DNA of 64,000 nt from Aminobacterium mobile DSM 12262 (GTDB taxonomy: Bacteria > Synergistota > Synergistia > Synergistales > Aminobacteriaceae), in assembly GCF_000526395.1 (NCBI RefSeq), contig NZ_JAFZ01000001.1:1116001-1180000 (forward strand), in the 5' to 3' direction. Under the pieces are notes generated by a model, which saw only the letters and a program-made list of their open reading frames with translations, searched no databases and was not told the DNA's origin. This document shows, one piece after another, positions 24,232 through 54,408 of the stretch (position 1 is its first letter; each line of letters opens with the position of its first letter). A program made the position numbers and the translations under genes.

Positions 24232-25984
24232 ACTCTCAAAAGAGATAGCTCTCAAAATAGCTGCGGGAGAGGTTGTAGAGCGCCCAGTATCTGTTGTAAA
24301 AGAAGCTATAGAAAACTCTTTGGATGCTGAGGCCTCCCGCATTCTTATAACTCTTATGGAAGGTGGAAAAACATCTATCGTAGTAGAAGACGATGGGGTA
24401 GGAATTACCTGGGAAGACATGCCTTTGCTCCTTACTCGATATGCGACAAGTAAAATCTCCTCCCTTGAGGATCTCTCTCATATAGGTACCTTAGGATACA
24501 GAGGTGAAGCTTTGGCAAGTATTGCTTCCGTCAGTTGTATAGATATTCGGAGCAAGGTAAGGGGCGCTGAAATTGGTGGGCTTCTTCAGGCAGAAGGGGG
24601 TACTATTACATGCTTGGATCAGCTCCCATGGAAAGAAGGAACGCGGGTTCAAGTCGAGAACCTTTTCTTTAACTTTCCTGCCCGTAAGAAGTTTCTGCGG
24701 AGCAGTTTGGCGGAACTTAAGAGAATCTCCACGGTGGTGCGAGATTATGCTGTCGCGTATCCTAGCGTTTCCTTTTCACTTTACCATAAAGGAAATAAAA
24801 CATTTGAATCTCTGGGAAATGGCGAGCGTATTAAAGTTTTACAATCTCTTTGGGGGCTAGCTCCCGAGATACGGTCTACTGTAGTGCAATGTGGTTCTGT
24901 TTCTCTGGAGTGTTGGTGGCAACCAACTCCAGGTCGGCAGCGTAATTCCATTACTACCTTTGTCAACGGAAGAAGTGTTTCTGACCCCCTTATCAAAGGA
25001 GCAGCTTCAGTAGCTTGCAAGGACTTATCAGGGAACTGGATGCTCTTTTTTTCTCTGCCAGCCGATTTAGTGGATGTGAATATTCACCCTGCCAAAGCAG
25101 AGATACGGTTCCGGTATCCTTCCGAGATTTTTGAAGTGGTAAAGGCCGCTGGTCAGGATTTGCAAAGCAGAGCTACAAAACTTTTTGTGTTCCCTGATCA
25201 TCCAGCCATGCTAGGGGAAGACAATAAAAGAGACGTTCCTTTGCCGCACTCTTACACTCCCTGTATGTTAGCGCCTGATAATTTTTTTACACGAGTTTCT
25301 TCTCCAGGTGACATTCTAAAAATAAAAACAGGAAGCGATTCCTCTATTTCTTCTTTAAGTAGTGACGATGTGGAAACGGAAAGAAAATTTCTTGACGATT
25401 TTTCTTCCAGATCGCAGGTTCGATTTATATCTCAAATGGCATCAGGATATCTTCTTTTTGAGCATAACGGGGCTTTAACTCTTATGGACCCCCATGCAGC
25501 TCATGAACGAGTGAAATATGAGGAAATAGTACGCCAGATAGCAGAGCATGGAGTTGTTTCTCAAAAATTGGCACCTTCTCTCCCTATCCCTCCCTCTCTT
25601 GCTACAGATGCAACAGAGTATTTAGATAAATTGAGAGAAGCAGGTTTTTCTTTTGAGACGGAGAATGGACAGCTTTTACTTTCATCAGCTCCCGATCTCC
25701 AAATAGAAGGAGGAAGCGGCCCTTTATTTCTTTTGAGAACAGCTATATTGATGTGGCAAGAGACAGGATCTCGATCGATTGATGACGTTCTTTGGAGGAA
25801 ATGGGCTACGGCAGCCTGTAAAAAAGCAGTTAAAATTACAACCCGATGCTCGCCCCAAGAAGCACTTCATCTTTGGGCATCTCTTCATTTATGTTCAAAT
25901 CCAGCTGTGTGTCCTCATGGTCGCCCTACTACTTTAACGCTAGAAGAACTACAGATCGAACAATATTTTGGGAGGGAAAAATAA
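24218..25984 (+). CDS. mutL: DNA mismatch repair protein MutL
   Basis: A 588-aa GHKL ATPase that couples MutS to strand incision. ATPase motifs are ENSLDAEAS, EDDGVGIT and LGYRGEALASI. The C-terminal part has the endonuclease signatures: DPHAAHERVKYE (usual form DQHAxxExxxYE, with Pro for Gln here), ACKKAVK and CPHGRPT. These zinc-site motifs mean strand nicking activity is likely, consistent with the absence of MutH in such bacteria. ATG 24218 has GAGGAG upstream within mutS. Confidence 0.96.
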   Translation: MGICKLSKEIALKIAAGEVVERPVSVVKEAIENSLDAEASRILITLMEGGKTSIVVEDDGVGITWEDMPLLLTRYATSKISSLEDLSHIGTLGYRGEALASIASVSCIDIRSKVRGAEIGGLLQAEGGTITCLDQLPWKEGTRVQVENLFFNFPARKKFLRSSLAELKRISTVVRDYAVAYPSVSFSLYHKGNKTFESLGNGERIKVLQSLWGLAPEIRSTVVQCGSVSLECWWQPTPGRQRNSITTFVNGRSVSDPLIKGAASVACKDLSGNWMLFFSLPADLVDVNIHPAKAEIRFRYPSEIFEVVKAAGQDLQSRATKLFVFPDHPAMLGEDNKRDVPLPHSYTPCMLAPDNFFTRVSSPGDILKIKTGSDSSISSLSSDDVETERKFLDDFSSRSQVRFISQMASGYLLFEHNGALTLMDPHAAHERVKYEEIVRQIAEHGVVSQKLAPSLPIPPSLATDATEYLDKLREAGFSFETENGQLLLSSAPDLQIEGGSGPLFLLRTAILMWQETGSRSIDDVLWRKWATAACKKAVKITTRCSPQEALHLWASLHLCSNPAVCPHGRPTTLTLEELQIEQYFGREK

Positions 25985-26940
25985 TGAATATCCCCCATCA
26001 GCTTATTGCTATTATAGGCCCTACTGCAGTAGGAAAAACTCAACTGAGTCTCTATTTGGCGGAGAGGCTTAATGCTGAAATTATCTCTGTAGACTCAAGG
26101 CAAGTTTATCGTTATATGGATGTTGGAACTGACAAGGTATCTCCTGAAATTCAACGTCACATCTTACATCATCTTTTAAATGTGGTAGATCCTGACGAAA
26201 TTTTTTCGGCAGCTGATTTTGTTGAAAGAAGCATGTCTTGCATAAAACGTATCGCAACAAGAGGGCACGTGCCTTTATTTGTAGGGGGGACCCCTTTCTA
26301 TTATCAGGCACTTTTCGAGGGAGTGTTAACGCAGGATCTTCCTCGTGATAGAGACGTGACTGATGAGCTTGAGATGTTTGCGCAGCAGCAAGGCAATAGC
26401 GCTCTCCATGCTAAGTTAGCCGATGTAGACCCGGTCAGAGCGTCACAGCTTCATGAAAATGATGTGCGTAGGGTAAGCAGAGCTCTTGAAATTTATACTC
26501 TTACAGGAAAAACTGCTACATGGTGGTACTCTCAGGGGAAGGAACGAGGCGCTCAATTTTGCCCCCTCTATATCGGATTGAATAGGCCTAGGCCTTTATT
26601 GTTTCAGACAATAGAAAAACGTGTTCGTGAACAATTTTCTACTGGATTTGTCGAAGAGGTAGAATGGCTGCTTGCTCATGGTTTTGATGAACGTTTCCCA
26701 TCTATGCAAGGTTTTGGTTATAAAGAAATTGTTGAATATCTTAGAGGTTCCATTACGAAGGAAGAGGCAATAGAGGGAGACATTAGCGCCACTAAAAAAT
26801 TTTCCAGAAGGCAGATGACATGGTTCAAGAAGTTTTCCCCAACTCTGTGGTATGATATCTCAGATAGAAACATAGAATCTCTATCAAGCGAGGTTTATGA
26901 TGCTTGCTTAAGGCATCTTGAAAGGGGCAACGAAATCTGA
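25984..26940 (+). CDS. miaA: tRNA dimethylallyltransferase
   Basis: A 318-aa enzyme that prenylates A37 of tRNAs reading UNN codons. P-loop GPTAVGKT at residues 12-19, DSRQVYRYMDVGTDKV, and FVGGTPFYYQALFEG are all diagnostic. The ATG overlaps the mutL stop (TAATG), with GGGAGGG upstream, so the mutS-mutL-miaA genes are coupled. Confidence 0.96.
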   Translation: MNIPHQLIAIIGPTAVGKTQLSLYLAERLNAEIISVDSRQVYRYMDVGTDKVSPEIQRHILHHLLNVVDPDEIFSAADFVERSMSCIKRIATRGHVPLFVGGTPFYYQALFEGVLTQDLPRDRDVTDELEMFAQQQGNSALHAKLADVDPVRASQLHENDVRRVSRALEIYTLTGKTATWWYSQGKERGAQFCPLYIGLNRPRPLLFQTIEKRVREQFSTGFVEEVEWLLAHGFDERFPSMQGFGYKEIVEYLRGSITKEEAIEGDISATKKFSRRQMTWFKKFSPTLWYDISDRNIESLSSEVYDACLRHLERGNEI

Positions 26941-27773
26941 GTCGTGTTATTATAGCAAACCCGACGGGGTTTTGTTTTGGTGTACGAAGGGCTATAGAAG
27001 CATTGGAAGACATTCTAACAAAAAGAGGCTTAGTATACTGTATTGGTATGCCCATACATAATCCCCAAGAAGTAGACCGTTTAGTCCGAAAGGGGCTTGT
27101 CGTTGTTGATTCTCCTGAGTTAGTTCCACCCTCGTCTCAAGTTTTCGTTAGAGCTCACGGTATATCTCCTACCCTTTTTTCGGTTCTAAAACAGCGGAGT
27201 ACATGCGTTATTGACGGAACATGCCCTTTTGTAAAAAAAGCCCAGGAACGCGCCAAACATTTGGCAGAAAGTGGCTATTTGGTCTGTATTGTCGGAGATG
27301 CGAGTCATCCGGAAGTAAAGGCCTTGCTAGGAACGGTAGGAGGGCATGCGATTGTTGTTCGAAATATAAACCAGGCAAAAGATATTGGTAAAATTTCTAA
27401 ATTAGGGGTAATATCACAAACGACACAAGATGAAAAAGATTTTTCCTCTATAGTGGCAGAGCTAACACTTCATACAAAAGACATGCGAATATATAATACG
27501 ATTTGTAATGCCACGCGGGCTCGACAGAATGCAACACGGGAACTAGCAAAAGTAGTGGAAGGTATTATTGTAATTGGTGGAAGAAATAGTGCCAATACTG
27601 GTAAACTTTACGATATTGCCAAATCTACGGGGGTTGACGTCGTCTGGATAGAGCACGCCCAAGAGTTGGATAGGGGGTGGTTATCGGGAAAGGCCCGAAT
27701 AGGAATAGCTGCTGGAGCCAGTACTCCGGATTGGCTAATTCATCAACTGAAACAAACTATGGCGATCACGTAG
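26937..27773 (+). CDS. ispH: 4-hydroxy-3-methylbut-2-enyl diphosphate reductase, apparent CTG start
   Basis: IspH makes IPP and DMAPP in the last step of the MEP isoprenoid pathway. The three iron-sulfur cysteines are Cys13 (PTGFCFGV), Cys96 (GTCPF) and Cys190 (ICNAT), numbered from the CTG at 26937; E. coli has C12, C96 and C197. The frame is closed by a TGA at 26919-26921, and between it and Cys13 there is no ATG, GTG or TTG. The first usual start, TTG 27003, would remove Cys13. CTG 26937 overlaps the miaA stop as CTGA, and AAAGGGG (26921-26927) lies 9 bases before it. From CTG the protein is 278 aa, the normal length. Confidence 0.9.
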
Positions 27774-27795
27774 GAGTCAAGGGGGATGGAAGGTT

Positions 27796-29301
27796 ATGGT
27801 AGAAGAAATGATTAATAATGAGTTTGAAGGAACTGAAAATCTTGAGAGCATGGAGACCATGCTTAAAAATTATGAAGTTGAGGAAATCCACAAAGGTAAG
27901 GTCGTAACCGGAACTATTGTGGGAGCCACGGATGATGGGTGGCTTGTGGATGTAGGATATAAATGTGAAGGTTTTCTTCCCAGAAGAGAATGGTCACATA
28001 AAATTTTGGTGGAAGAAGAAGATGAGCCTTCTGTAAATGATGAAGTACAGGTGCAGGTCATTAACGTTCGCCACGGCGAAGATGCACAGCTTCTAGTAAG
28101 TAGATGGCGCTGTGAGTTCGACAGCAGATGGGCAGAATTGGAGAACTACCTTTCCTCCCATGAACTCATTACAGTGAGAGGGCTCCGCAAGGTTAAAGGT
28201 GGCCTTATGGTAAATTGCTTTAACCTTGAGGGCTTTATTCCTATCTCTCACCTTGCTGAAGAAGGTCGAGGCGTAAATCCCGGCCGTTTTGTTGGTGAAG
28301 TTTTTGATGTGAAATTGCTGGAAAAAGATCGCCGTAAACGGAGACTCGTCCTTTCCAGACGTCTTCTTGTGGAAAAAGAAGTAGAAGAAGAAAGAGAGAA
28401 GTTCTATGCTTCAGTAGCAGAAGGGGACATCCTGGAAGGGAAAGTAAGTAGTATTACTTCTTTCGGCGTATTTGTCAATCTTGGCCCTATCGACGGTCTC
28501 GTACATATTAGTGAGCTTTCTTGGAAGCGGAATATAAAGCCCAAAGAAGTAGCTAAAAAAGGAGACACAGTGAAGGCCAAAGTCATTGGCATAGATAAAG
28601 AAAACAATCGCATTTCTCTCAGTATCAAACAAACTCAGCCAGACCCTTGGACTCTTGTTGAGGAGAACTGGAAGTCAGGAGATAGGGCTAAAGGTCTTGT
28701 AACCAATGTTACGAACTTCGGCGTTTTCGTAGAAGTAGAGCCTGGCATAGAGGGTCTCATTCATATTGGCGATCTGAGTTGGGCTCGCATTAAGCATCCG
28801 AGAGAAGTTCTGAAAAAAGGGCAGGAAGTAGAAGTTATAGTCCTAGAGGTTGATGCTGAGAAGAAACGCATGAGCCTTGGATACAAGCAGCTCCATGACC
28901 CTTGGGCTGGAATAGAAGACCGCTATTCTAAAGGACAGGATCTTACTGTTAAAGTTGTACGGCTTGCAGATTTCGGGGCTTTTGTTGAGGTTGAAGAGGG
29001 AGTAGAGGGACTTATTCATATCTCCCAACTCAGCACAAAACGAGTAGACAAGCCTGAAGATGTTTTATCTGAGGGAGAAGAAATTCTCGCTAGGGTCATT
29101 GAAATTAACCCCGCAGAGCGACGAATGAGATTAAGCATCAGCGCTCTTTACGAAGAAGAGATCCGCAAGCAGCGAGAAGAGGAAAGGAAGAAGAAACAAT
29201 CTCAGAAAGAAGAAGAGCACAAACACAAACAGCAAACCTTCCATGAAGAAGAACCCTCCATTACGATAGGGGATGTACTTAAAGATATTCTCAACAAATA
29301 A
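27796..29301 (+). CDS. rpsA: 30S ribosomal protein S1 homologue (five S1 domains)
   Basis: A 501-aa RNA-binding protein with five recognisable S1 repeats beginning near residues 34, 118, 210, 295 and 380. The last three are the most canonical ([29 protein letters not shown]). A charged, Lys/Glu/Gln-rich tail follows. S1 proteins bind mRNA to the small subunit. ATG 27796 has AAGGGGG 10 bases upstream. It follows ispH by 22 bases in a different frame; in many clostridia the two are fused into one polypeptide. Confidence 0.93.
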
Positions 29302-52612: not shown

Positions 52613-52659
52613 ATCACAGTGAGTGTTTTTGCTTGATTTTTTTAAACTTTAGTTGAAAG

Positions 52660-54408
52660 GTGGGGCTTGTCATAGTCAGCTTTAATTCGCTAATCCCCGA
52701 TATGAATCTTTTTGCCTTTATTGGCATTCTCGTCATTACATGTTTTCTTTTCCAGAGACTATGCAGGCGTTCTCTCGATAACAGTCAATACAATTATCTT
52801 CGAGATATTCTTCTCATCGGGGCATGGATGGTAAGCGGAATTTGGTCGGGCGATCCGGAAGTGACCCTTATTATTGGGGCTTCCGTTGTTGCTGCTGTGA
52901 TAGGAATGTATCAACACGTTTATCCCCAAAAAAAAATACGTTTCCTTTTCCTTGGTTTAGGTGTTTTATTTGCTGCTGTTGGCCCAAGAATCTCCTTTTT
53001 AGGACTACCTCATGGAGAATACTTCTATTTATCAGATTTTATCGCTGTATTTTTAACGGGCCTATGGCTTGCTGTTTTTCCCATTCTCATCCAAGAGCTC
53101 GATAATATTCCAGGGATGGCAGGACATTTGCTAGCTGTTTCTTTTTCTATATTGTTAATAGCAACGGCTCTTTCAGGACAATATCTACCCGATGCCTTGT
53201 TTACCAGTATGACGGGGCTTTTATTGCTTGGCGTTTTTTGGAGCCGGCACGGACATATGTATCGTCGTCTTGGCGAATCCCTTTCCGCTTTTTGGGGAGT
53301 TCTTGTGGCTGGTACGTCTCTGCTCGGCGTTAGCAAGGGAATTACATTCAGTACATTAATGGTTTTGCCGTTAGGATTATTTGCTATCCCTCTTATGGAA
53401 ACATCGTTGCATTTTGCCAGCTCTTTACTCTCTGCAAATCCCAAAGGGGCGATGGTTATTTATCGTAGCCTTATAGGGAGAGGGCTTGATCATCCTAGTG
53501 CTGTGAAGTTTATTACTTCGATTTGTGCTTTAACAGGTGCAATTATAGCCATGTTCCAACTCTCTGAAGGAAAAGCCTTAGTTTTCTTTGTGAGCGGCAT
53601 TATTATTTTTGCTGGTGTAACCCTCGTCCCTGTTTTTGCTCGCCTTATGAAAAACAGGTCTGTGAAAGGAGAGAAGCCTGACCTTTGGGGAGTGACTATA
53701 GATAATGTTTCTATGAACTATGCTATTACTAAAGTGTATTCTCTTCTCAGTCAAAAAGAGGGGGGAGTCCTTATTTCCACCGTTAATTCCCTTGCCGTTC
53801 AAACAGCATTAAAAGATGAGGAGTATAGGAAAATTGTGGCCCAATCGGCACTCACTTTAGCGGATGGAACAGGGCTTATATGGGCTTTACGTTTCTTAGG
53901 TAAACCTGTTCAAGAACGTATTACTGGCATAGATTTCCTCTGTCAGCTATGTCGTACCGCCAGTGTAGAGGGGTGGCCGGTCTATTTTCTGGGCAGCAAA
54001 CCTGGGGTAGCACAGAAAGCGGCAGAGAATTTAAAAGAACAATATCCCGGATTGGTTATAGCAGGTGTTCAGCACGGCTATTTTACTGAGAAGGAAGAAG
54101 AAAAGGTCATAAAGTCTATTTGTGAGTCTGGAACCCAGTTATTGTTTGTAGGGTTAGGTATTCCTCGACAGGAAAAATGGATATATAAGAATATGAAATC
54201 TCTTGGTAACGTTGTTGCTATCGGTATAGGAGGTTCCTTTGACGTAATTTCCGGATCTCTATCTCGCGCCCCTATGCTTATACAAAAAATGGGCTTAGAA
54301 TGGTTGTATCGTCTTATTCAAGAGCCATGGCGGTGGAAAAGAGATCTGGAGCTTTTTACTTTTGTCTGGCGCGTTTTGCTCACTAAAATTGGTATTATCA
54401 GGAGGTAA
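52660..54408 (+). CDS. Degenerate WecA/MraY-like membrane domain fused to a WecG/TagA/CpsF glycosyltransferase
   Basis: A 582-aa two-part protein. Residues about 10-330 form roughly ten membrane helices that line up with WecA-type polyprenyl-phosphate sugar-1-phosphate transferases (KKIRFLFLGLGVLF, GPRISFLGLPHG, LLIATALSGQ), but the catalytic sites are lost: the DD pair is absent, the NAxNLIDGLDG motif reads QELDNIPGMAG, and the HLHHRL region is not conserved. Residues about 338-560 are a GT26 WecG/TagA/CpsF domain with STVNSLAVQTAL, LADGTGLIWALRFLG, GSKPGVAQKAAE and GLGIPRQEKWI. It probably adds the second sugar to a lipid-linked glycan. The GTG 52660 start is uncertain; ATG 52702 is an alternative. 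Confidence 0.85.
   Translation: MGLVIVSFNSLIPDMNLFAFIGILVITCFLFQRLCRRSLDNSQYNYLRDILLIGAWMVSGIWSGDPEVTLIIGASVVAAVIGMYQHVYPQKKIRFLFLGLGVLFAAVGPRISFLGLPHGEYFYLSDFIAVFLTGLWLAVFPILIQELDNIPGMAGHLLAVSFSILLIATALSGQYLPDALFTSMTGLLLLGVFWSRHGHMYRRLGESLSAFWGVLVAGTSLLGVSKGITFSTLMVLPLGLFAIPLMETSLHFASSLLSANPKGAMVIYRSLIGRGLDHPSAVKFITSICALTGAIIAMFQLSEGKALVFFVSGIIIFAGVTLVPVFARLMKNRSVKGEKPDLWGVTIDNVSMNYAITKVYSLLSQKEGGVLISTVNSLAVQTALKDEEYRKIVAQSALTLADGTGLIWALRFLGKPVQERITGIDFLCQLCRTASVEGWPVYFLGSKPGVAQKAAENLKEQYPGLVIAGVQHGYFTEKEEEKVIKSICESGTQLLFVGLGIPRQEKWIYKNMKSLGNVVAIGIGGSFDVISGSLSRAPMLIQKMGLEWLYRLIQEPWRWKRDLELFTFVWRVLLTKIGIIRR

Follow-up and report, generated by a model that had tools for sequence, protein, structure and literature searches.

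In Aminobacterium, ispH is, with a probability that we put at roughly 0.8, translated from a CUG codon that overlaps the stop codon of the preceding miaA gene; initiation there would be directed by a Shine-Dalgarno (SD) sequence, weak and probably fed by re-initiation, and the gene would be one of about eight of its kind. Judged by comparative sequence analysis, the CUG start itself is almost certainly real and conserved. The gene lies in the window, the whole stretch of 64,000 nucleotides of the A. mobile DSM 12262 genome that was analyzed here. A preliminary description had proposed a CTG start fed by coupled re-initiation. The CTG part is now strongly supported by its presence in three species, by a modal SD spacing and by the lack of an alternative, while coupling is argued for by the geometry of the junction. 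The features are summarized below.

Table 1. Features of the miaA-ispH junction in the window and genes with candidate near-cognate start codons in three Aminobacterium genomes (G001, A. colombiense; G002, Aminobacterium sp. MB27-C1)
Feature	Position	Strand	Basis or remark
miaA (tRNA dimethylallyltransferase), upstream partner of ispH, stop TGA 26938-26940	25984..26940	+	TIGR00174; open reading frame
In-frame stop TGA closing the ispH frame upstream	26919..26921	+	Kept in all three Aminobacterium species
Shine-Dalgarno AAAGGGG, inside miaA	26921..26927	+	Identical in three species; forms 7 base pairs, one of them G-U, with the 16S tail ACCTCCTTT
Putative ispH start codon CTG, sharing CTGA with the miaA stop	26937..26939	+	Conservation; SD score and spacing
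ispH, 4-hydroxy-3-methylbut-2-enyl diphosphate reductase, 278 aa	26937..27773	+	TIGR00216; PDB 3dnf; single copy
First conserved cysteine, in PTGFCFGV	26973..26975	+	Would be lost with TTG 27003 as start
rpsA-like gene for an S1-domain protein, following ispH in the cluster	27796..29301	+	Conserved ATG start; named from repeated S1-type domains, not by profile search
hemW	G000:C1:1055676; L181, L185, L189		ATA in all three; overlaps the stop of an upstream lepA-like gene as ATAA/ATAG
kdtA			CTG in all three species
polA			CTG in every species; a TTG in frame directly adjoins the SD
hypE			CTG in G001 and G002; TTG in the window genome
tlyA-like gene			ATA in all three species
DtxR-like regulator			ATT/ATC/ATA; possible ATG nearby in the window genome
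fapR			ATC/ATT/ATT; possible TTG/GTG nearby in G001/G002

The predicted product of 26937-27773 is beyond doubt IspH. It scored 268.1 bits with TIGR00216 (cut-off 187.85), placing it in the IspH/LytB family, and matched the solved IspH structure 3dnf with 3e-68; no second copy is present in the genome. The cysteines of the [4Fe-4S] cluster, C13, C96 and C190, were invariant in the genus and its nearest relative, and C13 and C96 fall in segments aligned to 3dnf. MiaA reached 277.7 bits with NCBIfam TIGR00174 (cut-off 148.65). Within 26937-29301 the S1-domain (rpsA-like) gene lies directly 3' of ispH, and NCBIfam NF000907 was the top match by E-value. In some bacteria IspH and an S1-domain protein are joined in one bifunctional protein.

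The ispH frame extends from 26922 to 27773 and is bounded at its 5' side by the in-frame TGA. From 26922 onward its codons are AAG GGG CAA CGA AAT CTG AGT CGT GTT ATT ATA GCA AAC CCG ACG GGG TTT TGT. Rereading them one by one confirmed the closing TGA and the absence of ATG, GTG and TTG between 26922 and the cysteine codon TGT, both of which had been described before. It also bore out the earlier statement that the earliest standard start, TTG 27003, lies 3' of the first cluster cysteine and would delete it. As C13 is kept, the start must be located upstream of 26973. In alignments CTG 26937 falls in the column where IspH proteins have their N-terminus, and the starts of relatives lie 11-13 codons 5' of the first cluster cysteine. 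Among 61 conserved open reading frames of the window, ispH was the only real gene with CTG as the first shared NTG. Selenocysteine insertion or read-through at TGA 26919-26921 was rejected because of more stops in the ispH frame just upstream.

The SD and the overlap were likewise found as first described, with a gap of 9 nt between AAAGGGG and the CTG and an overlap of 4 nt. The 3' end of the 16S rRNA was read from A. colombiense and MB27-C1 (L122/L123) as GGATCACCTCCTTTCT. In a reference set of 451 genes whose standard start is shared, the aligned SD spacing showed a mode of 6-11. For CTG 26937 an aligned spacing of 8 and a score of 16 were obtained, the latter identical to the genome median of 16.

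The genus was sampled with the window genome, A. colombiense and Aminobacterium sp. MB27-C1, and a GTDB scan yielded no further Aminobacterium genome. A comparison of ispH 5' ends, suggested earlier as a check, found CTGA kept in all three species: the junctions of the two relatives, CATCTTGAAAGGGGCAACGAAATCTGA and CATCTTGAAAGGGGCAACATAATCTGA, carry it 9 nt after AAAGGGG as in the window genome, and their ispH genes likewise lack a standard start 5' of the cysteine. IspH identity among the three species was only 67-68%. At four-fold sites of miaA and ispH 27-55% were identical, so that synonymous sites are near saturation; codon and SD are shared at this degree of divergence. The last seven miaA codons with identical amino acids were the same in all three species (7/7), compared to 47/162 (29%) elsewhere in the gene (Fisher p = 2.6e-4). 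All three species have Ile ATC, the rarest Ile codon of the window genome (2,793/13,996), directly before the miaA stop. Two alternatives would be silent for MiaA but would provide ispH with a standard start, ATG in the case of ATA and TTG in the case of ATT. In the nearest outgroup, the sister genus (L004/L031), a TTG stands in the CTG column and overlaps the miaA stop as TTGA. With CTGA in the genus and TTGA in its sister, the 4-nt overlap predates the genus. As read from these sequences, the C of the CTG would either be an innovation or have persisted although two silent changes could lead to a stronger start. None of about 59 other distinct IspH loci, with 5' ends read automatically, lacked a standard start.

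For the mechanism, we propose that the strong SD inside miaA directs initiation at the CUG, where fMet would be inserted, and that the inefficient codon would keep IspH output low relative to miaA. Ribosomes finishing miaA would probably supply much of ispH initiation, and a strong SD together with such ribosome delivery could raise a weak CUG start. Initiation at CUG, selection for a low yield, the contribution of coupled re-initiation and the discrimination by IF3 are all inferred from the sequences. Termination-reinitiation after miaA is plausible, the 4-nt stop/start overlap being kept between genera. The SD is, however, strong enough to initiate independently, in which case it would recruit new 30S subunits to the CTG, with CTGA reflecting compact gene packing. 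This possibility we hold to be somewhat unlikely. It agrees with an SD score equal to that of ordinary starts, and the near-cognate starts of hypE, the DtxR-like gene and fapR are not located at 4-nt overlaps in the sequences read, which indicates that coupling is not required for such starts. However, the overlap geometry was kept across two genera, and 4-nt overlaps with an SD have been tied to termination-reinitiation (PMC6728339). Predicted RNA folds of the junction differed between the three species (z of -2.25, -1.33 and -0.01), so no shared RNA fold was found.

It is very improbable that IspH starts, as in infC, at an Ile codon instead of the CTG. The column in question reads ATT (26949) in the window and ATA in both relatives, and near-cognate Ile starts occur elsewhere in the genus. 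Nevertheless, no SD was found at a workable spacing from ATT 26949 or ATA 26952 in the window genome. Moreover, such a start would cut four residues from the beginning of the N-terminal strand, at odds with the distance of 11-13 codons in relatives, and would leave the conserved AAAGGGG-9-CTGA unexplained. The preliminary description had placed these alternative codons 3 nt too far upstream, at 26946, which is GTT, and 26949. Even less credible is a -1 frameshift near the miaA stop, giving a MiaA-IspH fusion that needs no ispH start. The ispH frame is indeed -1 relative to miaA and open back to 26922, and the SD-like AAAGGGG could stimulate a shift, but the 21-nt overlap holds no X-XXY-YYZ heptamer, relatives have separate miaA and ispH genes with ordinary starts, and a fusion would give no reason to expect selection for an NTG across the stop. 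A sequencing error hiding an ATG or GTG, which had been named as a possible refutation and is a general possibility in a draft genome of five contigs, has a negligible chance: the same CTG with its flanks is present in two other, independent and complete Aminobacterium genomes, that of A. colombiense being finished with a stated error below 1 in 100,000 (PMC3035294).

Returning to the CUG start, this codon yields 0.86% of AUG initiation in E. coli (PMC11497404), a low value for an essential enzyme, unless it is raised by coupling or by ribosome features particular to this lineage. IF3, initiator tRNA, RsmI, RsmH and KsgA were checked for a cause of laxer initiation; all look normal and no cause was found. 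The initiator tRNA carries the GGG/CCC stem, RsmI, RsmH and KsgA were all found, and in IF3 the residues at what we take to be the sites of E. coli fidelity mutants are kept. A defective initiation machinery was discarded on these grounds. By analogy to sigR and ccpN/cvfC1, the consistent avoidance of ATG and TTG suggests that a limited output of IspH is selected for. A conserved CUG on an essential single-copy gene, kept despite two silent routes to ATG or TTG, would thus be evidence for a selected weak start.

The CTG of ispH does not appear to be a lone oddity, as about seven other genes of the genus look alike, with similar near-cognate starts. Stop-to-stop orthologues were searched in 598 triplets, covering about 0.8 Mb per genome in the three species. 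Genes were listed when no plausible standard start was present in two or three species and a near-cognate codon was found at modal SD spacing. As only part of each genome was sampled, the resulting count of about eight genes is a minimum, and for several of them one species offers a possible standard start. As positive control for near-cognate reading served infC, which showed ATA with GGAGGTGA in every member of the Synergistota with a readable infC start. For hemW no standard start precedes the CxxxCxxC motif in two of three species, and outside the genus standard starts are present upstream. The kdtA CTG with its SD GGGGGTGG recurs in G004, G010, G015, G043, G044 and G045 (L280-L294), i.e. 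in several Synergistota families, and is found close behind the upstream stop where this was read. In most Synergistota genera read (L339-L359) the fapR start column is ATA, ATT or ATC at an SD spacing of 8-10, as if an AUH start were selected for this lipid regulator. Some members of the set are of older date, given that other families share the kdtA CTG and the Ile codons of fapR. Where a CTG column close to the N-terminus was conserved, an SD accompanied it in 6/12 cases, compared to 289/525 for standard starts and 6% for other codons. Of these six, we judged those of ispH, kdtA and polA to be real starts; the other three adjoin a standard start. The near-cognate starts of this set are most simply read as weak starts that would limit dosage.

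Two further reading frames came up. At 52657-54408 an open reading frame of 583 aa has an in-frame GTG inside its SD, and the conserved ATA at 52672 may be another start of the near-cognate kind. Outside the window, a SelD-like open reading frame (G000:C1:1102485-1103495, minus strand) is preceded in frame by MRLTELSRTSG-TGA-AAKIGPADL, near-identical in the other two species. Its in-frame TGA most likely encodes selenocysteine, and it was removed from the near-cognate list; as a selenophosphate synthetase with selenocysteine it indicates that the genus probably uses this amino acid.

Whether these cases reflect a general trait we regard as an even bet: Aminobacterium, and in part all Synergistota, would use near-cognate starts (CUG, AUA, AUU, AUC) with strong SDs in about 1% of genes, including the essential ispH, kdtA, polA and hemW. 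Each start would be a conserved attenuator, start stringency would be unlike that of model bacteria, and the annotated proteomes would contain systematic 5' errors or false pseudogenes. The ispH start and the other conserved cases offer a natural set for testing near-cognate start function and the strictness of the Synergistota ribosome. Gene finders normally do not consider CUG, and such genes are mis-started; ispH, hemW, kdtA, hypE, polA and fapR are probably affected in databases. CUG makes up about 0.024% of annotated bacterial starts (PMC11497404). That this lineage has more near-cognate starts than other bacteria is a comparison drawn from the literature only (PMC13009471; PMC5622118). 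Switches from AUG to CUG or AUU were found very rare in 36 genome groups by annotation-based counts, which may under-report them (PMC5622118).

From its sequence features, ispH belongs to a known class of conserved non-canonical starts; unusual are the CUG on a 4-nt overlap and the set within one lineage. A near-cognate start (AUU, AUC or AUA) conserved over wide distances is also known from infC. There it is part of the autoregulatory loop of IF3 itself, unlike in ispH, for which we know of no link to IF3. In Streptomyces, sigR has a near-universal non-canonical GTC start with an extensive ribosome binding site within one genus (PMC5472188), and the putative start of ispH is similarly shared within its genus. 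Canonical replacements of the sigR start over-produce the protein, and IF3 represses the GTC start (PMC5472188). SigR is a sigma factor in a regulatory pair started by GUC (PMC5472188), whereas ispH encodes a metabolic enzyme, would start at CUG and lies downstream of an overlapping gene. In Staphylococcus aureus, four non-canonical start sites were found genome-wide, and those of ccpN (AUA), cvfC1 (AUU) and citZ (AUA) were verified by Ribo-Ret (PMC13009471). Like ispH, these three combine a non-canonical start with a strong SD and cross-species conservation, ccpN also in B. subtilis, and in the same text such starts attenuate expression to about 10-30% of AUG (PMC13009471). Their codons are Ile codons, and no 4-nt overlap is reported in the text consulted, in contrast to the CUG on an overlap proposed for ispH; the four S. 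aureus sites given there are genome-wide, compared to about eight in our partial and solely computational Aminobacterium sample (PMC13009471). The closest resemblance in geometry is to the ATGA, GTGA and TTGA termination-reinitiation pairs, which, like miaA-ispH, overlap by 4 nt and have their SD inside the gene upstream (PMC6728339). Unlike these, the miaA-ispH overlap begins with C, and the resulting codon is about 100 times weaker in E. coli (PMC11497404).
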